In this document: piece by piece, positions 8,050-21,023 of the stretch
How positions within the stretch are numbered: position 1 is the stretch's first letter
Layout: every line of letters starts with the position of its first letter
Source: a virus
Virus record (IMG/VR): IMGVR_UViG_3300006916_000352
Location: 1-25,121 of that record
DNA: 25,121 bases
Reading direction: 5' to 3' (one strand)
Position numbers and translations under genes: made by a program
Notes under the pieces: model-generated
What the model saw: only the letters and a program-made list of their open reading frames with translations
Databases searched by the model: none
What the model was told of the DNA's origin: nothing

Positions 8050-8126
8050 TGGTCTCGATGGCTGGATTTGAACCAACGACCTCTTGTACCCAAAACAAGC
8101 GCACTACCAAACTGTGCTACACCGAG
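8050..8126 (-). tRNA. tRNA-Pro(TGG) with encoded CCA
   Basis: Full cloverleaf on the minus strand: acceptor CTCGGTG/CATCGAG (one G-T), D stem GCAC/GTGC with GG in the loop, anticodon stem CTTGT/ACAAG with loop TTTGGGT giving anticodon TGG and G37, T stem GTTGG/CCAGC with loop TTCAAAT, discriminator A, then CCA. The early promoter 8135-8163 predicts transcription starting within a few bases of the mature 5' end. Confidence 0.95.
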
Positions 8127-11081: not shown

Positions 11082-11201
11082 GTCTAAGTTGTTGAAATCA
11101 AACGAAACCTTTTTTTCATCACTATCACTTTTAGTCCACCCTTCTAGAGTACTTATATCTATTCTATCAAAAGGATCGTTATCTATAGGTTTCTCTGACA
11201 T
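11061..11201 (-). CDS. Small acidic protein
   Basis: 46 residues, MSEKPIDNDPFDRIDISTLE..., soluble and largely disordered in appearance. ATG 11199-11201 follows GGAG at 8 bases and overlaps the upstream gene by 23 bases. Its last residues are encoded by the promoter-upstream repeat. Function unknown. Confidence 0.65.
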   Translation of the reverse strand: MSEKPIDNDPFDRIDISTLEGWTKSDSDEKKVSFDFNNLDKKSVSS

Positions 11202-11472
11202 CTTGCAATGCTCCTTCTATTTGAGGCGGATACTTTCCTGTATAAGTTCCAGCCTCCAACATGTCTTTAGTTAAATAATCCTTGTGTCTATGATCTATGT
11301 TGTCCCAATCTTTCAAAATTTTTCGAGCTAGCTTATCGAACTCACTATCTTCTAAGATAGGATCGTCTTGTTCGTAATATGCGTATGCTGCCATAATGTA
11401 CCAAGGGACACTCATATTGATGTTGCCGTCGACTATGTCGATACACGCATCCTCAATACCTTTTTTGTCCAT
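11179..11472 (-). CDS. Conserved phage protein with a ligase-Ia-like motif
   Basis: 97 residues. The segment AYAYYEQDDPILEDSEFDKLARKI resembles the YY..D.P...D.EYD.L motif of domain Ia of NAD-dependent DNA ligases, which binds the NMN part of NAD. No adenylation domain follows, so it is not a ligase. Similar short proteins are found in phages; function unknown. It overlaps the end of the SprT-like gene by 20 bases. Confidence 0.75.
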   Translation of the reverse strand: MDKKGIEDACIDIVDGNINMSVPWYIMAAYAYYEQDDPILEDSEFDKLARKILKDWDNIDHRHKDYLTKDMLEAGTYTGKYPPQIEGALQDVRETYR

Positions 11473-11887
11473 CGTACAATTCCTTTAATTCCTTTTCTTT
11501 ATTATGAGCTTCGATCTCCCATGGTCTAGAATCGTAATCCATTTCTGCTTCAAATACTTTTTTTTCAAAAATAATTTCGTCGCCCCATTTTTGTTTCATT
11601 CTCCCCGTGAGATACTGATGCACGTGCACCATTTCGTGTAGCACTGTTGAAATCATGTCTTCGAGGGGGATAGATACATCGATGCGGATCGTAAACTCAC
11701 GATCACCTTCATCCAGAACGTCGCCGTAAACTCCTTGCTTTTCGGTTAACTTTCGTATCGTTCTAATATTTATATAAACAGGCTTCTTGATACGAGGCAT
11801 GAGTTGTTTCGCAGCAAACATCACTGAGTTAATAATTGCTTTTTGGCGATAACGGGCTGTTTTATTTTCAAAATCAATAACAATCAT
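11453..11887 (-). CDS. SprT-like zinc metalloprotease
   Basis: 144 residues with HEMVHVHQY (the HExxH zinc site, about residues 84-92) and a later PWEIEAHN that fits the third ligand helix (E/H). SprT/SPRTN proteins cleave DNA-crosslinked proteins in other systems; the phage role is not known. The early promoter 11894-11922 lies so close that the RNA should start at or next to the ATG (11885-11887), leaving no leader or ribosome binding site. Confidence 0.85.
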   Translation of the reverse strand: MIVIDFENKTARYRQKAIINSVMFAAKQLMPRIKKPVYINIRTIRKLTEKQGVYGDVLDEGDREFTIRIDVSIPLEDMISTVLHEMVHVHQYLTGRMKQKWGDEIIFEKKVFEAEMDYDSRPWEIEAHNKEKELKELYDGQKRY

Positions 11888-11893
11888 AATAGT

Positions 11894-11922
11894 ATTCTAT
11901 ACTATTTTCTTGTAAATGTAAA
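11894..11922 (-). promoter_or_regulatory. T4-type early promoter
   Basis: TTTACA, 17-base spacer, TAGAAT on the minus strand, between the end of the glycan operon and the SprT-like gene. The predicted start coincides with the ATG. Confidence 0.75.
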
Positions 11923-12519
11923 CTAGTTTTTTGTTCTAATTTCAACATTTTTTGGCACCGGAAACTTTATGTTTGGGTGCTTATGATATAAGACAAACTG
12001 TGTATCTGGAAACTCATTAAACATGTTTTGCCAGACTGGTCTCCAGTTGTTTATTAGTCGATTGTTATTCATATTTGATCTATCTGAATTAAGAAAGAAA
12101 TCACTATTACTTAATAGATTAAAATCAAACATAGAGTCGAATCCATACATATGGATTTCAGTTGCTTCCATTTTACTTGCTACACAGTGCACTGCCATGT
12201 GACCGCAGTTAAAGTCTGTGTAATTTTGTACATATTTCGGTAGAGTTAAGTAGAACCCTTTAATTTGAGATGCAAACTTCATGTAAAAGTCTGGTCTCAT
12301 CTCCATCCATTTCTTAGGTCGAGCACCAAGAGTCCATTCACCTGGAACTATTACAGATCCTTCATCAATTGCTTTCATCATCTTAAAGTCAACCATAAAG
12401 GTTGTGTAAACATTATGAACTTCAAGAGGCGGTAAGTTGCATGTTACTTTAAGTCCCTTTGCGGGTTTATACATTTGTGCACAATCGCCATTACCAATTA
12501 CATGAGCTACTTTACTCAT
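11923..12519 (-). CDS. GT42/MptE-like (DUF115-type) glycan protein
   Basis: 198 residues. N-terminal HVIGNGDCAQMYKP resembles the nucleotide-binding GNG.S turn of CstII-type sialyltransferases and MptE/DUF115 proteins. NYTDFNCGHMAVHCVA and the later IHMYGFDSMFDF also fit that fold. A sugar-transferring role, possibly nonulosonate, is plausible from motif and position at the end of the glycan operon but not proven. Coupled to the previous gene by ATGA, with GGAG upstream. Confidence 0.75.
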   Translation of the reverse strand: MSKVAHVIGNGDCAQMYKPAKGLKVTCNLPPLEVHNVYTTFMVDFKMMKAIDEGSVIVPGEWTLGARPKKWMEMRPDFYMKFASQIKGFYLTLPKYVQNYTDFNCGHMAVHCVASKMEATEIHMYGFDSMFDFNLLSNSDFFLNSDRSNMNNNRLINNWRPVWQNMFNEFPDTQFVLYHKHPNIKFPVPKNVEIRTKN

Positions 12520-13175
12520 TTATCATACTCCAAAAATTCATTGCTTTCTCTTATCATTTTTTCAATTTTAAGCTTGCCTTTTCTACCAGTCCAATGCATA
12601 ATAACGTGGTCCTTTGGCATAGAAGAATCTACTATATCCAGACGTAATGTATTATATTTTCTTGGAAGATCTGTTATATGTATGTGTCTTCTCATTCCAT
12701 CTTTTACAAGTTCATGAAGGACTTCTTGGTCACCGACTTTAGGGTTTGCTTTAACTGCTGCATACCATTCATCAAGAATGTTAGGTCGATTCTGAAAAGC
12801 AACTACACCAGAGTTGTGCCATGTCTCTTGTCTTCGTCTAGACCAAGGAACATCTTCAGCCATTGTAAGTTTATTGGGTTGTATGTAATCAAATATTTCA
12901 TCTACTTCACCAAGAACTTGGCAATCAGTATCCAGCCAACACACCTGTTCTGCAAGCTTAGATGCTTCGATCATTGCTTTTGGCTTTTTAAACCAGCCGC
13001 GTTCATTACCTTCAATAGGTCGAGCTGCAAACACACGTTTCATTTCTTCGGACATGCCAAAGTCATATACAACTAATTTAGTCTTAGTAAATCTTTTTAA
13101 ATTATCAAAGAACCAGGGTAGCTGCCATTGTGTTTTATGATCACAACCAGTAATGAATATTTTAGATAACTTCAT
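12516..13175 (-). CDS. DxD glycosyltransferase (GT8-like)
   Basis: 219 residues from ATG 13173-13175 (TTGGAG upstream). GT-A features: FITGCD at the start, a nucleotide-sugar/metal DxD in CWLDTDCQVLGEVD, WHNSGVVAF, GDQEVLHEL and a late MHWTG. It would transfer a hexose from a UDP-sugar; donor and acceptor are unknown. It overlaps the previous gene by 14 bases. Confidence 0.85.
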   Translation of the reverse strand: MKLSKIFITGCDHKTQWQLPWFFDNLKRFTKTKLVVYDFGMSEEMKRVFAARPIEGNERGWFKKPKAMIEASKLAEQVCWLDTDCQVLGEVDEIFDYIQPNKLTMAEDVPWSRRRQETWHNSGVVAFQNRPNILDEWYAAVKANPKVGDQEVLHELVKDGMRRHIHITDLPRKYNTLRLDIVDSSMPKDHVIMHWTGRKGKLKIEKMIRESNEFLEYDK

Positions 13176-13806
13176 AAGTTTCTCCAAAAGAATGCTTTGC
13201 ATAACATCCGATAGGATTTTGAATAGTGGAAAACGAGTCTCTTGCTTCTACAGGCCAGGGATAGTATTCTTGTAGGAAAGGAAACGATTCTTTGTTTAAA
13301 AATACATCGGTGGGCTGTGCATGCAGTTTAGCCTGCTTTACCAGTGCACGAGCTCCGGCAGGAGTGAGGCGATATGCATGTGCACCAGGGAAATACCTTT
13401 TAGATGTTAACAATCCAACCCCTAGAGCCGGCGTATGATATTTTCCATAGGAAGGTTTGCCTAATGAAATTACTTTGTCAAAGAGAAGTGAATCACTTAT
13501 TGGTTGTACGATAAATGCATCATGCTCGAAGATAGTGTAAGTGACATTATCTTCTATACACTTTTTCCATAAGCTATAATGAGATAAGAAAGCAGCGATA
13601 CAATTTTCAAGTCTTGAATATTCTTCAATAAAACCATGTGTATCGAGTTCTTCAGCTTCCATCATACGATATACGTTTATGTTTCGAGGAGTAACTGCAT
13701 CATACATATCAATCTTCATACCGTGCTTAGTGCCAGATTTGACACACCGTCTTGCAGTTTGTACTGATCTTACAATATCAGTGATAGTAATTACAAAATT
13801 TTTCAT
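13162..13806 (-). CDS. GT25-like glycosyltransferase (copy 2)
   Basis: 214 residues, LPS glycosyltransferase family 25 type. CIAAFLSHYSLWKKCIED and IFEHDAFI are the family's SH..W and EHD(A/D) motifs; AYRLTPAGARALV and QPTDVFLN complete the core. GT25 enzymes often add galactose to LPS or, in other branches, to collagen. It is a diverged paralogue of the next upstream gene (13803-14495), with the same motif order. ATGA coupling. Confidence 0.88.
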   Translation of the reverse strand: MKNFVITITDIVRSVQTARRCVKSGTKHGMKIDMYDAVTPRNINVYRMMEAEELDTHGFIEEYSRLENCIAAFLSHYSLWKKCIEDNVTYTIFEHDAFIVQPISDSLLFDKVISLGKPSYGKYHTPALGVGLLTSKRYFPGAHAYRLTPAGARALVKQAKLHAQPTDVFLNKESFPFLQEYYPWPVEARDSFSTIQNPIGCYAKHSFGETYEVI

Positions 13807-14495
13807 TGTGTTGTAGTACTCTTTAGCTTTTGAACACTAGTATAGAATTTGCGAGTGACACCAAGTTTAGGAACTAATTGATAGCACATGATTGCATCAT
13901 TAGGCCAGAGACCAAATTCCTTTACGAGACTAATAAGTTTATTAGCACCTTCTGGTTTAATTATATATGCTGAGTTTCCAGCTAAACCTTGTGGAACATT
14001 TGCAGGTGCTAAGCGAGGAACTGATTGTTGGTACCTATCATCATTTAAAATAGTTTGATAGTAATCACGTGATTTAAATGTGCAACCTATTGGATTATTA
14101 ATTCCAAGAATATTAAACTTTGAATCATTCATATTGAAATCAAGTTTTATTGTAAACATTGCATCGTGTTCAAGAATAAGTATTGGCTTATTTAAATTAG
14201 AACACATGTTCCATAATCTGTAATGACTCAATGCACAAGCAACTCTTGCCTTTGGACTTCTTGTTTGGTATGCTCGTTTGGTAAGTCCAGAACTAAAGTC
14301 AGTGACAGTTCCTTCCCAAGGATAGTTCCATTGCAGTTTATGAGCCAACAGAACTTCTTTTACATCATCTGGTGTAATAGCCTTGAACTTTTCAATTTCA
14401 AAATCATTACCAACTCTTTTCGAAGATTCAATTAAATTATTAAATCCTGTTTCAGATATTTCATTATCTTTTATGACAATACTATAAGCAATCAT
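13803..14495 (-). CDS. GT25-like glycosyltransferase (copy 1)
   Basis: 230 residues with ARVACALSHYRLWNMC, ILILEHDAMF, GNSAYIIKPEGANKLI and WPNDAIM, the family 25 signature in order. A paralogue of 13162-13806, suggesting tandem duplication followed by divergence in acceptor or linkage. Coupled to the methyltransferase by TAATG. Confidence 0.88.
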   Translation of the reverse strand: MIAYSIVIKDNEISETGFNNLIESSKRVGNDFEIEKFKAITPDDVKEVLLAHKLQWNYPWEGTVTDFSSGLTKRAYQTRSPKARVACALSHYRLWNMCSNLNKPILILEHDAMFTIKLDFNMNDSKFNILGINNPIGCTFKSRDYYQTILNDDRYQQSVPRLAPANVPQGLAGNSAYIIKPEGANKLISLVKEFGLWPNDAIMCYQLVPKLGVTRKFYTSVQKLKSTTTQ

Positions 14496-15070
14496 TACTT
14501 CTTACCGATGACTGTATACCCTACATTTTTAGTAACACGTTCTAGAACTTTCCATTGATTCTTTGCAGCCCAAGCATTTAATACTTGAAATAAACTGTCA
14601 TTCATTTTACCATGAAGAATGCTAGTATCATGAGCTATAATATACTTCTTAACGTTTCTACCATGCATGTCTAGTTCTTTTTGTAGATGATTGGGATGAT
14701 GATAACTATCAATGACTAACATATCAGTCATGTTAATAGCACCGAAACCAGTAGAGTCAGTTTGATTGACAATTAATTCTATATTATTTGTATCACACCA
14801 TTTCTCTGCAAGAGGTTTGAGGAACTTATTATATTTTGTAAAGTCAATATCTACAAGATAAACTCTGCTTGGTTTACATAACATGGCCACAGAAGCAGTG
14901 CCACCTTGGTGTGTACCAAGTTCCATATAACTCTTACAGTCTTTCATGTATTTCGTAATAGCATCATGGATAGCACAGTAGTCTTTACCATGTGCTTCTT
15001 CTTGCTGTTCTCTAATAGATTTGTTAAATGTTTTTACGGTCTTGCAATGACCTAGTTCGCTGTTAATCAT
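14495..15070 (-). CDS. Class I SAM methyltransferase (CmcI/Methyltransf_24-like)
   Basis: 191 residues. SYMELGTHQGGTAS is motif I for S-adenosylmethionine, VYLVDID the acidic strand-2 motif, and DMLVIDSYHHPNHLQKELDM with YIIAHDTS resembles sugar O-methyltransferases of the rhamnosyl/cephalosporin-hydroxylase type. O-methylation of a sugar in the glycan is the likely role from context. ATGA overlap with the aldolase gene. Confidence 0.85.
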   Translation of the reverse strand: MINSELGHCKTVKTFNKSIREQQEEAHGKDYCAIHDAITKYMKDCKSYMELGTHQGGTASVAMLCKPSRVYLVDIDFTKYNKFLKPLAEKWCDTNNIELIVNQTDSTGFGAINMTDMLVIDSYHHPNHLQKELDMHGRNVKKYIIAHDTSILHGKMNDSLFQVLNAWAAKNQWKVLERVTKNVGYTVIGKK

Positions 15071-15864
15071 TTTTCTATTGCTTCTTTTATCATTAAGATA
15101 TTTTCTTTTAGTTTATCGTTAAACTGGCTTTCAGTTTGACCGTATTTTAAACCTTCGCTCAATCCTCTGGAAAAACTAGCACTCATACCAGATTGACAAG
15201 CCAAACGTCTACACGCTTCTTTTGTCGTATATCCACCGCTAAGTCCAACAATCTGCATAACCTTATCGTGTTTCATGATGTCGCTATAAAAATTATCCAT
15301 GTCTGGTAATGTAAGTTTAAGTATACACTTTCCTTGGAATGCATCTAATCTTTCAGCTAACTCGTCTCGAAGCTTACACTCATATACCGATTTCATAGGA
15401 TGATCAATTGGAATCTCTGGTTCTACGATTGGCATGAGTCCACCTTTATATACTGTCTCTGCAATAGCAAATTGCTGAGATAATATCATGTCAATATCCT
15501 TTACGTCTTTTAGAATACTGCGCATCTTCGTACCAGTGCAAGCATGTTCTTGAGCATAGTCAACCATGTCATCCCATCTAAAATATTTTAGATAACCATT
15601 TTCTTCTACACCATTATCAATTTTTAGATAAGCCTGAATTCCTTTTTGTTTTAATATTGGTACCATGCCACGGTCAACTGTATCTTTGTACAGGATTGCT
15701 GCCCATATATTATCAGAATTAAACATAGGACTATTCACCATACGCATTCTCATGGCATGAATCTTATCCATCTTATCATCTTCTGTATATTCTTGACCAT
15801 ATCGTTCAAGTACACCGCCGGTACTTCCACCGCTATGATCCATTGCAGCTATAAATCTATTCAT
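15067..15864 (-). CDS. Class I fructose-bisphosphate aldolase
   Basis: 265 residues, clearly like bacterial class I (Schiff-base) aldolases of the staphylococcal type: FIAAMDHSGGST at the start, MRMRMVNSPMFN, GTKMRS (K113), IVEPEI, ILKLTLP with the Schiff-base Lys183, and a phosphate-binding VGLSGGY. It interconverts FBP with DHAP and G3P, or a related phosphosugar reaction. The start at 15862-15864 overlaps the upstream stop by 8 bases; the frame can extend to 15915 (MIKLFGVKTFLEKQ), and that extension also resembles family N-termini, so the start is uncertain. It sits among glycan genes, which hints at precursor supply. Confidence 0.93.
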   Translation of the reverse strand: MNRFIAAMDHSGGSTGGVLERYGQEYTEDDKMDKIHAMRMRMVNSPMFNSDNIWAAILYKDTVDRGMVPILKQKGIQAYLKIDNGVEENGYLKYFRWDDMVDYAQEHACTGTKMRSILKDVKDIDMILSQQFAIAETVYKGGLMPIVEPEIPIDHPMKSVYECKLRDELAERLDAFQGKCILKLTLPDMDNFYSDIMKHDKVMQIVGLSGGYTTKEACRRLACQSGMSASFSRGLSEGLKYGQTESQFNDKLKENILMIKEAIEK

Positions 15865-16195
15865 AGGTTTCGCCTGTTTCTCTAAAAAAGTTTTCACTCC
15901 AAAAAGCTTTATCATCTATCCACACATCATAGTGTTCTTTTTTACCAACACTTAATTCATGAAACTTTGCGCCCCATTTGATTAATTGATTGTTTGTCAA
16001 GTTATAATAATCTTTACCACTCACTGCACCGCGAGCTGTCATATACTTGATCGTATGTCCAGCATCGTAAAGTTTATTAATTTTTGTAATTCTGTCATAC
16101 ATTGGAATATGATTTGCGTAGTCTTTTTTACCACCGCTACCTGGAATGATAACTTCTTTACATATCGTTCCATCGATATCTATAACATACTTCAC
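15857..16195 (-). CDS. HAD-superfamily phosphatase (capsule/sugar type)
   Basis: 112 residues. DIDGTIC (5-11) is HAD motif I with nucleophile D5 and acid D7; MTARG is motif II and YDVWIDDKA motif IV. Short HADs of this form occur in polysaccharide clusters and probably remove phosphate from a sugar phosphate. The start is GTG at 16193-16195 with GAGG 7 bases upstream. Confidence 0.85.
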   Translation of the reverse strand: MKYVIDIDGTICKEVIIPGSGGKKDYANHIPMYDRITKINKLYDAGHTIKYMTARGAVSGKDYYNLTNNQLIKWGAKFHELSVGKKEHYDVWIDDKAFWSENFFRETGETYE

Positions 16196-16212
16196 TTAAT
16201 CACCTCTTCTTT

Positions 16213-17031
16213 CTATCCATCATTCGGCCAGTTTTCATTAACCGGTAAGTTCCATTCGCTTATTGGTTTATTTGTTATTTGCCATAATGCTTCTTCAGGC
16301 CAGTCATCTGCAGTTCTAAACATTATATGAACTAACTTAGGATTCTCTCCTCTATTGTCACCAATCTTAGCGTTAGGATGTGAGCCGACTTTATGCATAT
16401 AACAGTTCCACTCATTTGGCATTCTCATTAACTTAAAACCTGGTAAATGAATAAACGCTGAAAAGTAATCTTGAAACAATCTATAGAAGTTAGGAAATCC
16501 GTTCATATTGTTTACATACTCTTGAAAGGAAGGCCATTCCTTTTTCATCTTTTGTAAACCATTTTTTGATATAACAACAACACCAGTATTGAATACTTCT
16601 GGTCTGTCTTTCTCATCTGTAGGATACTTGATACCCCACTTTTGTTCACAAACTCTCACCCATCTTTTATCAATAACACTATTGATTCCACCAGAGTTAT
16701 ATATTGTCCTGAAATAAGGTTGCTTTGGTTCTGTGCAAATACCAGCATCTTCTCCATTTAACATAAACAGATCATCAGCAAGGCCTTCTGTAGGAAAGAC
16801 ATCAATATCAACTAAAGCAACGTTATCATACTTATCAAAAGATTTATCAACTAAAGGATTAGCTGGTTCATAGTAAATAGGAACATTCACAGTTTTACTT
16901 GCAATCTCAATGTTATGGTCAAATCTATATTCAGCACCAATACGATCTGCATATTCTTTCATTAGTCTTGTAGAAGCTATAACACCAGGCTTCATAGGAC
17001 CTTTCCAATATTGATATATTATGTTTGCCAT
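16213..17031 (-). CDS. DxD glycosyltransferase, paralogue A
   Basis: 272 residues, GT-A type. N-terminal IIYQYWKG, EYADRIGAEYRFD and DKYDNVALVDIDVFP (DxD), then FNTGVVVISK, DYFSAFIHLPG and HIMFRT. The same layout is seen in 18041-18712 and 19302-20087, so the three form a local family. Donor unknown; the preceding UDP-galactopyranose mutase makes UDP-Galf a candidate. AGGAG upstream; overlaps glf by 13 bases. Confidence 0.85.
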   Translation of the reverse strand: MANIIYQYWKGPMKPGVIASTRLMKEYADRIGAEYRFDHNIEIASKTVNVPIYYEPANPLVDKSFDKYDNVALVDIDVFPTEGLADDLFMLNGEDAGICTEPKQPYFRTIYNSGGINSVIDKRWVRVCEQKWGIKYPTDEKDRPEVFNTGVVVISKNGLQKMKKEWPSFQEYVNNMNGFPNFYRLFQDYFSAFIHLPGFKLMRMPNEWNCYMHKVGSHPNAKIGDNRGENPKLVHIMFRTADDWPEEALWQITNKPISEWNLPVNENWPNDG

Positions 17032-18044
17032 TTATTTCTCCTGATAAATTTCTTTGCTGTCTGCAAAGATGAGTTAATAGCCTGATGCATATCAATGTAC
17101 GTGTACATTCCACATCTTCCAATAAAAGTCATCTTAGGATTGTTATATTGCTTGGCTGCATATTTTCTATATATGCCCGCATTAACGCCAGTATTATCTT
17201 TGACCGGATAGAACCTTTCATAATTGTTTTCTTTATAATCACATGGTTCTTCTGTAGTAAGTGTAGTCATATTAGAATTGATACCGTGAAAAGGATAGTT
17301 TTTCCATTCTGTAATTCTAGTGTAAGGACCATCATGTGTAAAATTTACAGTAGGTACAGGTAAGACTTTATTCATCGGTAAATGCGTGTGATGGAACTTT
17401 ATAGATCTATATGGCAGTTCACCGTATTCATAATCATAATAAACATCAATTGGCATTGAGTTAAATACATGATCATAAAGTTCTTCCATTCTTTTATCAA
17501 ATGGCGTGTTTAAATGTATAACTATGTTTTGGTGATTTAGAATACTTTTGAACAAAGTTGTATAACCACACAGCGGCATTATTTGATACTCATCATTTGG
17601 AAAGTATAACTCGTTATCATCATCACGTATAGGTATTCTTTTTGTAACACTGCTATCTAAATCTTCTAGTTCCAATCCCCACATCTTTCTGGTGTAGGGT
17701 CTGTAAAAAGTATCTATGATATTTTCTTCGCCAACAATATCTTTTGTTTCGTTATTGACTGGTAAAGTAACATAACGTCCATCAGAAAGTTGTGCCTTTA
17801 CTTTATGCTCGTATTCACCGAACCTACCATACATGGTTATCCAGTCATAAACTCTTTTATTATTTGTATGAAATATATGTGGTCCGTACTTGTGAACTCT
17901 TATGCCATGTTCATTTTCATAATCATATGCATTGCCACCTACGTGATCTCTTTGATCTATTACACATATCTTATGGCCAGCTTCTGCTAACTCACGAGCA
18001 ATCGTAGCTCCAGCAAAACCGGCACCTACAACTAATATATTCAA
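17019..18044 (-). CDS. glf: UDP-galactopyranose mutase
   Basis: 341 residues, slightly short of the usual 370-390. The FAD site GAGFAG (7-12), RDHVGGNAYD and HKYGPHIFHTN are diagnostic; YTRKMWGLELEDL, PYTRITEWKNYP and the C-terminal FIGRCGMYTYIDMHQAI complete it. It converts UDP-galactopyranose to UDP-galactofuranose using reduced FAD, so the glycan made here probably contains galactofuranose. The start is TTG (18042-18044), overlapping the upstream TGA as TTGA, with AAGGT 6 bases upstream. Confidence 0.96.
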   Translation of the reverse strand: MNILVVGAGFAGATIARELAEAGHKICVIDQRDHVGGNAYDYENEHGIRVHKYGPHIFHTNNKRVYDWITMYGRFGEYEHKVKAQLSDGRYVTLPVNNETKDIVGEENIIDTFYRPYTRKMWGLELEDLDSSVTKRIPIRDDDNELYFPNDEYQIMPLCGYTTLFKSILNHQNIVIHLNTPFDKRMEELYDHVFNSMPIDVYYDYEYGELPYRSIKFHHTHLPMNKVLPVPTVNFTHDGPYTRITEWKNYPFHGINSNMTTLTTEEPCDYKENNYERFYPVKDNTGVNAGIYRKYAAKQYNNPKMTFIGRCGMYTYIDMHQAINSSLQTAKKFIRRNKWQT

Positions 18045-18712
18045 AGTACACCTTCATCTACTAACTGTTGATAGTTTTCCATCTTATCACGCTTTGGTCC
18101 TTGAGGAGTAATCTTAGTACGTATATGAATAAACCCTGCCTTTTCTGGGTTAGGAAGAAAACTACATTGACACCACTTCGGATCTAAGTGTGTTTTTCTC
18201 CAGTTAATACCTGCTCTTAAAGCTAACACATGAAAGATACCTTCATCTTCAAAGTGGTATGGCAAATTAAAGTTTTCCATCCATGTGTTTGGAGGTGTAT
18301 TTGCTTCTCTTAGAGCTACCCTTAATTTCTTATTCATTTTATATATTGCACCGCCCCAATAAGGAGATCGAGAAGATGTGATTAAAGGATACTGTTGTAC
18401 TATTTTTCTATGTAACATCTTCTGTACGGTGTGGTACATTCCAACACCTTGTTCTTCAAAGATATTAATAGTCATGCCTTTAGGTGCAAACATATCAATA
18501 TCCACCATTAGTACATCATCGTACTCGTCAAACTCTTTTGAGATCATATGTACTTTTTGACAGGGTGCTGTTAGTCTTCGATTGAAAGGTTTGCCAGTAA
18601 CAAGTTTATATTCAGCTCCAATCATATCAGCATACTCTTGCATGTTCGCCATCGAGAGTTTATCTAACGGCCGCAGCTCGCCATCAAAGTGTTGTAGTAC
18701 AATATTCACCAA
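18041..18712 (-). CDS. DxD glycosyltransferase, paralogue B
   Basis: 223 residues. NIVLQHFDGELRP, EYADMIGAEYKLV and DEYDDVLMVDIDMFAP (DxD) align by eye with 16213-17031; WGGAIYKMNKKL and FEDEGIFHVLALRAG follow, with a C-terminal HIRTK. The start is non-ATG: TTG at 18710-18712 fits the paralogue alignment, and the next codon GTG overlaps the upstream TGA and is an alternative. Confidence 0.83.
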   Translation of the reverse strand: MVNIVLQHFDGELRPLDKLSMANMQEYADMIGAEYKLVTGKPFNRRLTAPCQKVHMISKEFDEYDDVLMVDIDMFAPKGMTINIFEEQGVGMYHTVQKMLHRKIVQQYPLITSSRSPYWGGAIYKMNKKLRVALREANTPPNTWMENFNLPYHFEDEGIFHVLALRAGINWRKTHLDPKWCQCSFLPNPEKAGFIHIRTKITPQGPKRDKMENYQQLVDEGVL

Positions 18713-19305
18713 GGTTTGCTTGCCTCAACAACTGCAGAGTGTAACTTACGTATCAAGCCAGGAGTGTCAATACCATTAAAGTCTCTTACTCCAGATTTTC
18801 CATAAGGCATTTCTTGTACGTTTTTAAAACCAAGTTCAGTAAGTGTTTCTAACATTTCTTTCTTATACCAAAGATGTTTGTGTTCACCACCTTGATATAA
18901 AAGTCCTTCAGCACATTGAAGTTGTTTGGACAGGTGTTCAGTTCCGGGTGGTGCAAACTTATGTTTCAAAATATAAAATTGATAGTAATGTTGTACAAAA
19001 GGATGTTCATCTAAGTTTTGATCTTGCCTAAGAAAGTCTACAAAATCCATAGGAGGCCACACAGTACGAATGATACCACCTGGCTTCATTACTCTATACA
19101 TTTCTTTAAAAAAGTTTATGCCTTCATCTTTTTCTAAGTGCTCAACAAAGTGTTCACTATAAACTGCGTTATACTGATCATCCATAACTCCCTTCATTGG
19201 AAGCTTACGCATATCATATACCATACAACCAGGAGTAGGTACATCTCGTACACTATCCCAATTCAATCCTCTGTTTGCATTTGGAGCGATTTCTAAATAT
19301 CTCAT
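18706..19305 (-). CDS. Class I SAM methyltransferase
   Basis: 199 residues. The N-terminus MRYLEIAPNANRG is a short motif I; YNAVYSEHFVEHLEKDEG and EMYRVMKPGGIIRTVWPP are motifs of Methyltransf_11-type enzymes. The C-terminal part (LWYKKEMLETLTELGF) is the usual late helix. Such enzymes in polysaccharide clusters methylate a sugar. Coupled to 19302-20087 by a 4-base overlap. Confidence 0.85.
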   Translation of the reverse strand: MRYLEIAPNANRGLNWDSVRDVPTPGCMVYDMRKLPMKGVMDDQYNAVYSEHFVEHLEKDEGINFFKEMYRVMKPGGIIRTVWPPMDFVDFLRQDQNLDEHPFVQHYYQFYILKHKFAPPGTEHLSKQLQCAEGLLYQGGEHKHLWYKKEMLETLTELGFKNVQEMPYGKSGVRDFNGIDTPGLIRKLHSAVVEASKPW

Positions 19306-20087
19306 ATTACCAATTCCATTAGTCGCTCAATATCTTCTCCTTCATTAGGAATTAAATCTTTATGAAAGAAATGTAAGAAGTGAGCCTGTTGCATCTTCTC
19401 ATGTGGTATAGCATTGAATAAGCCATTCCACTTCCAATGAAGATGTTTTTGTTTCATCTTTTCTTCTTTTACCCAAGTGTTCAGTAGTGTTTGATCCGTA
19501 GACCATTTCCACGCGCCTAATCCATCAATGAATCCTTTGAACTTTGCACGCATTAAAAACTCTCGAGGAGTTTGACCACGTAAATACTTTTGTATTTTTT
19601 TACTCATTAACATCATACCCATGTTATAGAACTCAGCACCATGATGATTCCACTTCCAATCAACGTGCTTTAATGATCCATACTGCATATGAGAATAGTT
19701 TGTAATTTTGTCGAAGTATCTTTGAGTTAGTGGCATCTGTCTTTCTATAACACCAGCAAATTCAGTGTCTTCATCTAACTCGTCAAACAGGTTAGGACTG
19801 TTTGGCCTGATCCATATATCACCATCTACAATCGCAATCTGATCATAACGATCAAAGTATGCAAATGCATTTTCTTTTTCATATATTGGTAGAAAGCCGC
19901 CATGTTTACCATAGGACTCTTTGCTGCGATTAGTAGCAAATACATCTGGTTTGATTCTTAGGATAGGTTCTCTTTGTATAACATGATCAATGCCATGTTC
20001 TTCACAGTAAGTAGCGACAGACTTTGTACAGTGGTCGTATAATCTTTTACGAGGTCCTGTGTATACCTGATAAATTAGTCTCTTCAT
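19302..20087 (-). CDS. DxD glycosyltransferase, paralogue C
   Basis: 261 residues. LIYQVYTGPRKR at the start, YDQIAIVDGDIWIRP (DxD), EFYNMGMMLMSK, STDQTLLNTWV and HFLHFFHKD give a GT-A fold. It has the same N-terminal arrangement as paralogues A and B but is longer and more basic. It starts 41 bases inside the end of 20047-20289. Confidence 0.83.
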   Translation of the reverse strand: MKRLIYQVYTGPRKRLYDHCTKSVATYCEEHGIDHVIQREPILRIKPDVFATNRSKESYGKHGGFLPIYEKENAFAYFDRYDQIAIVDGDIWIRPNSPNLFDELDEDTEFAGVIERQMPLTQRYFDKITNYSHMQYGSLKHVDWKWNHHGAEFYNMGMMLMSKKIQKYLRGQTPREFLMRAKFKGFIDGLGAWKWSTDQTLLNTWVKEEKMKQKHLHWKWNGLFNAIPHEKMQQAHFLHFFHKDLIPNEGEDIERLMELVI

Positions 20088-20289
20088 AGTAACTCACGAT
20101 TTTATTTGCGATAACTAATGCATTCTCAAAGTTTTTTCGAAAACGATTCTTCTTAGCTCCGGTTTCAATGAATGCATATAGATTATCTATAGTACCATTA
20201 TAATGGCTCAGCTCATAAGACTTACGATACCTTACGATTTCTTCCCATTGACTACGAAGTGTAAGTACTTCACCTAGCGACATATTCAT
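20047..20289 (-). CDS. Small helical protein at the head of the glycan operon
   Basis: 80 residues from ATG 20287-20289, with AAGGA 5 bases upstream and a 20-base overlap with the HAD gene. MNMSLGEVLTLRSQWEEIVRYR and ETGAKKNRFRKNFENALVIA suggest an all-helical protein. No family recognised. It may be an accessory of the glycan enzymes. Confidence 0.75.
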   Translation of the reverse strand: MNMSLGEVLTLRSQWEEIVRYRKSYELSHYNGTIDNLYAFIETGAKKNRFRKNFENALVIANKIVSYYEETNLSGIHRTS

Positions 20290-20857
20290 AGATATCCTTC
20301 CATGTTGCAAATGTTGGAAACTCGTCATTATTCATATTATGAGCATGTTCTACCATAATACTTTCGAGTCCTAGTCGATCACCTGTTTGTGCATTTAATA
20401 ATTTATCTTCAATCCAAAGAAGACCAGAGTCACGATAAGGTTCTAGCACTTCATCTTTATCTTCACCAGTGTCACAAAAGATAAATTTAGTAAAAGCGGT
20501 TTCACCAAATAATTTTTTACAATTTTGAATACGAAGCATCTGAGCATGTTCGTTATTTGAAAGAGCGGTTATCATATGAAACGTATAACCATGTTTACGG
20601 TGAAGAAGATCTACATAATACATAGCATCACGAAGAGGAGGTAAGAATCCCATAGCAGCAGATTCATTGAACTGTCTAACTAATCTTCTACTTATAGATG
20701 ATGGAAGATTGTATCGATCTTTCATATCATAGTATTGTTGACCATCTTCAACTATTTTATAACCTTGTGTTTGCATCCAGACATTCATGGCGTATTCCCA
20801 ATTCATGAGAACACCATCGCAGTCAGTAAGTATCACCCGGTTTAAATTGTCTATCAT
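20270..20857 (-). CDS. HAD-superfamily phosphatase
   Basis: 195 residues from ATG 20855-20857, set by GAAGGAG. VILTDCDGVLMNW is HAD motif I (Asp nucleophile and Asp+2), ITALSNN motif II and LLWIEDKLLNA motif IV. It resembles the HAD proteins of marine T4-type phages, some like 5'(3')-deoxyribonucleotidases. The substrate could be a nucleotide or a sugar phosphate. First gene after the early promoter at 20882-20910, which is the only recognisable promoter before the whole glycan island. Confidence 0.88.
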   Translation of the reverse strand: MIDNLNRVILTDCDGVLMNWEYAMNVWMQTQGYKIVEDGQQYYDMKDRYNLPSSISRRLVRQFNESAAMGFLPPLRDAMYYVDLLHRKHGYTFHMITALSNNEHAQMLRIQNCKKLFGETAFTKFIFCDTGEDKDEVLEPYRDSGLLWIEDKLLNAQTGDRLGLESIMVEHAHNMNNDEFPTFATWKDIYEYVAR

Positions 20858-21023
20858 TATATTCTCCTTCATTATAGTAGTATTCTACCATATTTTCAGA
20901 AGAATGTAAATAGTTTTTTTCGTTTTTAATATATTTTTTTATTCTAAAATCTTTATGAATAGATTGTTTCTTATGTTTTCCACGTTTTTTATTACGAGAA
21001 TCAAAGCGACTGAACTTAGCCAT
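20823..21023 (-). CDS. Small basic protein (MAKFSRFD type)
   Basis: 66 residues. MAKFSRFDSRNKKRGKHKK at the start is a pattern I recognise from short basic proteins of T4-type phages. The C-terminal half is acidic/Tyr-rich and overlaps both the early promoter 20882-20910 and the next gene by 35 bases, so that part may be an unselected extension. Coupled to glutaredoxin by TAATG. Confidence 0.6.
   Translation of the reverse strand: MAKFSRFDSRNKKRGKHKKQSIHKDFRIKKYIKNEKNYLHSSENMVEYYYNEGEYNDRQFKPGDTY
20882..20910 (-). promoter_or_regulatory. T4-type early promoter of the glycan island
   Basis: TTTACA, 17-base spacer ending in ATGG, TAGAAT on the minus strand; the RNA start is near 20875 and the leader holds GAAGGAG. 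No further promoter of this type was found until 11922. Confidence 0.75.

Follow-up and report, generated by a model that had tools for sequence, protein, structure and literature searches.

GT25 glycosyltransferases, LgtC-like GT-A enzymes, CstII-fold transferases and uridine diphosphate (UDP)-galactopyranose mutase (UGM) are families of the outer cores of Neisseria- and Campylobacter-type lipooligosaccharide (LOS) and of O-chains containing galactofuranose (Galf). Among marine T4-like phages, glycosyltransferase-rich genomes are already known, and the authors of a pelagimyophage survey favour modification of the host O-chain (PMC7029224). Here we analyse IMG/VR virus record IMGVR_UViG_3300006916_000352, whose entire 25,121 bases we refer to as the window, and within it a 14-gene island whose core is a cassette of glycosyltransferase and methyltransferase genes. 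The initial annotation proposed that the whole island is one early-expressed and possibly undescribed glycosylation system. As a unit the gene set is indeed absent from known phage records, and no conserved syntenic cassette of such make-up was found in the literature or phage records searched; what appears undescribed is therefore this cassette, placed outside the host-recognition cluster, and not the richness of marine T4-like phages in glycosyltransferases.

The island is confirmed as 14 joined minus-strand open reading frames (ORFs) running from 20857 to 11923, with an ORF span that reaches 20872. Overlaps of 1 to 59 nt join all adjacent ORFs but one pair, which is spaced by 17 nt, and the gene beyond the island (11453-11887, SprT-like) lies 35 nt past its last gene. 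The first gene most likely starts, as initially annotated, at the ATG at 20857, since an AGGAG ribosome site is present and the -10 box is a short way upstream. In the order of transcription, the features are as follows.

20882..20910, minus strand: early-type promoter ahead of the island (TTTACA-N17-TAGAAT, with TG before the -10 box)
20270..20857, minus strand: HAD200, HAD-type nucleotidase/phosphatase, first gene, non-core (phrog_420; ORF open from 20872 too)
20047..20328, minus strand: u93, putative small protein, non-core (PF04414 19.1 bits, below cut-off)
19302..20087, minus strand: GTa, DxD glycosyltransferase of GT-A type (invariant DxD)
18706..19305, minus strand: MT1, S-adenosylmethionine-dependent methyltransferase (PF08241 28.5 bits against a cut-off of 21.2)
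18041..18712, minus strand: GTb, DxD glycosyltransferase, paralogue of GTc (invariant DxD)
17019..18044, minus strand: UGM, short phage form, TTG start (PF03275 176.6 bits against 26.3)
16213..17031, minus strand: GTc, DxD glycosyltransferase, predicted GT-A fold (AlphaFold predicted local distance difference test score, pLDDT, 90)
15857..16195, minus strand: HAD112, small HAD phosphatase, lineage-specific insert (phrog_1238; weak EcbF/BcbF)
15067..15915, minus strand: class I fructose-bisphosphate-type aldolase, lineage-specific insert (2iqt, E 1.1e-44)
14495..15070, minus strand: MT2, putative sugar O-methyltransferase, weakly CmcI/RMNT-like (PF04989 17.3 bits against 23.2)
13803..14495, minus strand: GT25a glycosyltransferase (PF01755 57.1 bits against 24)
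13162..13806, minus strand: GT25b glycosyltransferase (PF01755 45.3 against 24; profile match to 8xc8, E 1.8e-7)
12516..13202, minus strand: GT8-like/PF03407 DxD glycosyltransferase (PF03407 21.0 against 22; invariant DxD)
11923..12519, minus strand: MptE/GT42-like transferase, predicted CstII/Maf fold (AlphaFold pLDDT 82)
11894..11922, minus strand: next early-type promoter, marking the end of the island unit (the SprT-like gene at 11453-11887 follows)

The motif gTTTACA-N17-TAGAAT occurs at eight sites in the window at no more than one mismatch, against 0.43 expected from shuffles, and the only copy between the two flanking promoters (17342) lies inside UGM codons. It is largely conserved in the sister contig G001, a 99.6-kb fragment of a T4-like myovirus in which most cassette proteins are 93-99% identical to those of the window, and the counterpart of the island promoter is found there at 85243. 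The T4-type late motif TATAAATA is enriched before the structural genes of the same contig (15 copies against 6.5 expected) and does not occur inside the island; it is absent from 18 of the 19 cassettes scanned, the remaining one having the motif inside. A copy of TATAAATA at -111 before gene f9 in sister loci was rejected as a late promoter, as the site belongs to conserved coding sequence upstream of the gene and is missing from L050 and L057. With one early-type motif directly before the first gene and the next after the last, these patterns support the annotated single early promoter and point to the island as one early-type transcription unit. Elsewhere in the window, a 97-residue protein (11179-11472) matches NAD+ DNA ligase over the N-terminal Ia domain alone (PF22745), and a tRNA-Pro (tgg) lies on the minus strand at 8050-8126.

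A scan of IMG/VR with GTc gave 39 loci, onto which the window proteins were mapped; the loci having been retrieved via GTc, the count of this gene itself is conditioned. The annotation had called for synteny in other marine T4-type genomes, and the core order is kept over about 20 lineages: the core is shared by ~20 distinct uncultured marine T4-like contigs, mostly adjoining phoH/RNaseH/regA, and identity across these lineages is mostly 40-80%. Among 25 compared sequences, GTb occurs in 24, MT2 in 21 and MT1 in 19. As for gene order, the succession GT25a-GT25b is seen in 19 of them, GTc-MT2 in 18 and UGM-GTc in 14. The cassette is under strong purifying selection, with ratios of nonsynonymous to synonymous substitution (dN/dS) against G001 of 0.006-0.12 for the cassette genes where it is computable, and 0.006 for MT2. 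For the MptE-like gene, the synonymous divergence (dS) is 0.037 against 0.19-0.38 elsewhere in the cassette, a hint of recent recombination. In one lineage, that of G002, the cassette has changed place as a set, six of its genes standing at a different site close to a fibre-like protein. Vertical inheritance alone was rejected as an account of the cassette: its identity correlates weakly with that of the backbone (Spearman 0.33, with 38 of 500 permutations as high), so that reshuffling is likely. Recent capture from a host was likewise not upheld, as a GTc pattern scan of GTDB contigs, which reaches close relatives only, confirmed no relative.

The claim that all 14 genes form one system is not supported. 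The aldolase and HAD112 are confined, among cassette loci, to the species group of the window, and the aldolase is found in just three viral loci. HAD200 occurs without the cassette core in L067 and L068 and separately from the cassette in L036 and L049, and u93 similarly occurs without or apart from it. The two HAD genes and the aldolase thus exist as annotated but fall outside the conserved core. UGM is missing from otherwise intact cassettes (G010, G011 and G015) and is best regarded as an optional member, GTa is exchanged for another DxD protein (f16) in sister lineages, and other loci carry added NodU-type carbamoyltransferase, radical SAM and epimerase genes. Such coming and going would suit an assortment of auxiliary metabolic genes and morons that yield no joint product, yet up to ten genes keep their order and company over ~20 lineages with low dN/dS, and six stay together at a second genome site, which makes that account very improbable.

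As a set, the cassette is absent from 50,697 GenBank phages, none of which contains DNA nearly identical to the window. GTc and GTa found no match in GenBank phage protein searches, the MptE-like protein (phage C48C1, 43%) and GT25b (26%) have single distant matches, and UGM itself is present in 87 phage records at less than 60% identity. The cultured relatives Melnitz and HTVC008M have no annotated glycosyltransferase at the corresponding position.

Most of the annotated enzyme identities are upheld. The UGM call stands, with PF03275 and the Rossmann FAD domain (PF13450, 72.6 bits against a cut-off of 21.9) both above their cut-offs; the protein falls below the TIGR00031 equivalog cut-off (276.9 against 303.75 bits), and alignments show that these short phage-type mutases are without ~34 residues and retain the YTRITE and YxDM motifs. 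Both GT25-like proteins pass the PF01755 gathering score. The GT8-like protein has the invariant DxD and lies just under the gathering score of its family. An invariant DxD is also common to all three proteins annotated as DxD enzymes, including GTa, which matches no family of Pfam, PHROGs or NCBIfam. Their member GTc is predicted from a confident model to be a GT-A enzyme, as its best solved match is A64R of chlorovirus PBCV-1 (2p72_B, Z 14.7, root-mean-square deviation 3.3, 189 aligned), followed by WbbM (Z 13.8) and by LgtC and LARGE1 (both Z 13.1).

For the GT42/MptE-like protein, the annotated fold is supported by a fair model with one loop below a pLDDT of 50, whereas the family-level sequence match stays below cut-off (PF01973, 14.2 against 34.6 bits). 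Foldseek alone gave no significant match, and structure realignment returned Maf (5mu5, Z 11.0), CstII (1ro8, Z 10.2), CstI (Z ~10) and an MptE-type archaeal HPPK (8sd5, Z 9.2). Of the two methyltransferases, MT1 passes PF08241 and MT2 is a weak, CmcI-like match under the PF04989 cut-off. The aldolase aligns with 2iqt over 262 residues and is below the curated cut-offs (NF003784, 242.6 against 392; PF00274, 20.0 against 22.2 bits). Collagen-type modification by GT25 with a 2-oxoglutarate (2OG) oxygenase was also considered and rejected, as no collagen repeats were found; the phrog_61 matches that prompted the idea are nearly all on the GT25 genes and cover only the N-terminal part of the profile. 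Taken together, the gene content supports the annotated capability for a methylated glycan, which would probably contain Galf.

The donor enzymes swap between cassettes, which carry either UGM or a UDP-sulfoquinovose-synthase-like protein with a GalE-like one. In G015 the place of UGM is taken by the UDP-sulfoquinovose-synthase-like protein (L183 662-1801), the GalE-like one and a NanM-type sugar O-methyltransferase. Further donor-type genes are found on G014, a 37-kb contig from the same sample as G001. G014 ends in a T8 run and G001 begins with one, and because this junction restores the gene order of G006 and G007 and both contigs share the same promoter motif, we infer that they derive from one genome. 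On G014 are genes for a UDP-glucose-dehydrogenase-like protein, an epimerase, KdsA (above its curated cut-off) and a KdsB-like protein. A compact run of KdsA, phosphoenolpyruvate (PEP)-carboxykinase-like and KdsB-like genes (L188 2495-5116) amounts to a phage-encoded route to CMP-3-deoxy-D-manno-octulosonate (CMP-Kdo), possibly with its own PEP supply. The phage KdsA proteins form a distinct group with relatives common in marine virus contigs; KdsA was discarded as a guide to the host, since its best cellular matches (42-50%) are spread across many phyla. The same contig also carries a type I GAPDH above its curated cut-off (L187 14873-15859), on what is a T4-like phage contig.

We tentatively favour a model in which this phage line builds a methylated oligosaccharide on the LOS core of its host and so alters the cell surface, because the enzyme families fit, acidic-sugar donors are found in the sister genome and the pelagimyophage survey arrived at a similar guess. 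The cassette would act as an early-type assembly line for a short methylated oligosaccharide in the cytoplasm of the infected cell. UGM would supply UDP-galactofuranose; the DxD, GT8-like and GT25 enzymes would add sugars stepwise from UDP-sugars; the GT42-like enzyme would probably add an acidic sugar activated with CMP; and MT1 and MT2 would methylate the chain. No cassette protein has a membrane segment, and nine cassette or sister records, all of them fragments in which ABC exporters were not searched for, yielded no Wzx-type flippase (PF01943), Wzy/WaaL polymerase or ligase (PF04932) or sugar-phosphate initiator (PF02397). For these reasons an acceptor on the cytosolic side probably receives the sugars directly, and the chain would grow there without a lipid carrier. 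The proposed acceptor is the host LOS core on the cytoplasmic face of the inner membrane; from there the host's own machinery would carry the altered LOS outward, and the surface would change during infection in a way that might, for example, block co-infecting phages.

Several observations weigh against LOS as the acceptor. The GT8-like (228 aa) and GT42-like (198 aa) proteins are without an extension suited to membrane binding. KdsA and KdsB were not seen in G006, G007 or G015. The nearest solved structure to GTc is a viral capsid glycosyltransferase, with LOS enzymes within ~2 Z units. Finally, the core is ~60% identical across phages that possibly infect different hosts, and a phage-encoded acceptor would fit this at least as well. 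LOS is only marginally ahead of the virion, close to a tie.

Autonomous glycosylation of the virion, in which the cassette enzymes, made early and at hand once the late proteins appear, would glycosylate a structural protein of the phage in the cytoplasm, is a possible alternative. The initial annotation held that early expression speaks against virion decoration, but this argument fails because the glycosyltransferases of PBCV-1 are mostly soluble, early and cytoplasmic and act on its capsid protein, and one PBCV-1 enzyme is thought to methylate a terminal sugar (PMC5408694). All cassette proteins are likewise soluble, the core is constant with variable donor and decoration genes, the second gene set in G002 is close to a fibre-like protein, and G006 and G007 hold further glycosyltransferase-like genes, identified by eye, within the structural region. 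The closest solved fold to GTc, that of the PBCV-1 capsid enzyme, also favours the virion, although its margin over LgtC and WbbM is small. Against the virion, the GT25s have neither collagen repeats nor a 2OG-oxygenase partner to work with, and the cassette is placed among replication genes. A broader version seems somewhat doubtful: that a cytosolic line in this lytic clade attaches a methylated, acidic, often Galf-containing oligosaccharide to the virion in the manner of chloroviruses, the core being kept while the donor and decoration enzymes (UGM, sulfoquinovose-type, carbamoyl and CMP-Kdo) can be exchanged. Two gene groups in these genomes were noted by eye: in G006 (52964-79410), ~26 kb of radical-SAM-, glycosyltransferase- and carbamoyltransferase-like genes with repeated hydrolase-like genes in the structural region, and in G007, TctC/TctA-like transporter genes and a PstS-like gene (117773-120251 and 93885-94868).

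It is unlikely that the cassette instead extends a sugar on the hydroxymethylcytosine (hmC) of phage DNA. Three of the four large genomes have a dCMP hydroxymethylase (G006, 50% identical to gp42 of phage RB32; G015; and G014, which also has a dCMP deaminase), but the fourth, G007, argues against a DNA acceptor, as it contains the cassette, gp43, UvsX, gp41 and ThyX and, on a contig that may be incomplete, no dCMP hydroxymethylase, dCMP deaminase or phrog_14998. In other marine phages UGM adjoins dCMP hydroxymethylase and phrog_14998 at the position of the T4 beta-gt gene, and glycosyltransferases that place diverse glycans on phage DNA have been reported (Pyle 2024, as cited in PMC12619734). 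Against this, the cassette is unlinked to the hydroxymethylase, and the DNA-type transferase genes are found at other places; on G014 a separate alpha-glucosyltransferase-like gene (phrog_2888) adjoins the hydroxymethylase.

Whichever acceptor is used (LOS, virion or DNA), the cassette offers a defined set of some ten small, soluble enzymes that lend themselves to expression and assay. It could reveal how such phages control superinfection, shield their particle or evade defence. That many marine T4-like phages keep a multi-enzyme glycan pathway together as one unit, which no cultured phage record searched does, also means that isolates are a poor guide to sugar use by ocean viruses.

Among known systems, mycobacteriophages are not known to carry as many glycosyltransferases per phage. 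They resemble the cassette in that the glycosyltransferases are phage-encoded, the glycans being reported on capsid and tail proteins (PMC12619734), and no related sequence was found. Phages of Aeromonas and Erwinia and marine T4-like phages share a UGM, and the short form is common to C48C1 and marine contigs; there the mutase is paired with phrog_14998 (L018 7451-11763; L021, L022 and L020), as it is in C48C1, and in some marine contigs the pair comes after dCMP hydroxymethylase and dCMP deaminase, whereas the UGM of the window lies inside the cassette. The phrog_14998 protein may be an hmC galactofuranosyltransferase. PBCV-1 (A064R and others) likewise combines soluble early GT-A enzymes, similar in fold to GTc, with a methyltransferase; it differs as a eukaryotic virus with multidomain proteins, other sugars and a known capsid acceptor. 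With the LOS outer-core enzymes LgtB, LgtC and CstII of Neisseria and Campylobacter the island shares the GT25 family and, in its models, the LgtC and CstII folds, but the phage enzymes are trimmed to catalytic domains and their LOS acceptor is only proposed. The pelagimyophages are likewise marine, T4-like and glycosyltransferase-rich, with UDP-glucose dehydrogenase and rfaE-type genes and a proposed change to the host surface (PMC7029224). Many of their genes belong to the host-recognition cluster or are dispersed in twos and threes; the island lies outside that cluster (the fibre genes of G001 are elsewhere) and, unlike them, is a conserved unit of 9-10 genes between phoH and gp59/gp32, complete with GT25, GT42-like and UGM enzymes.

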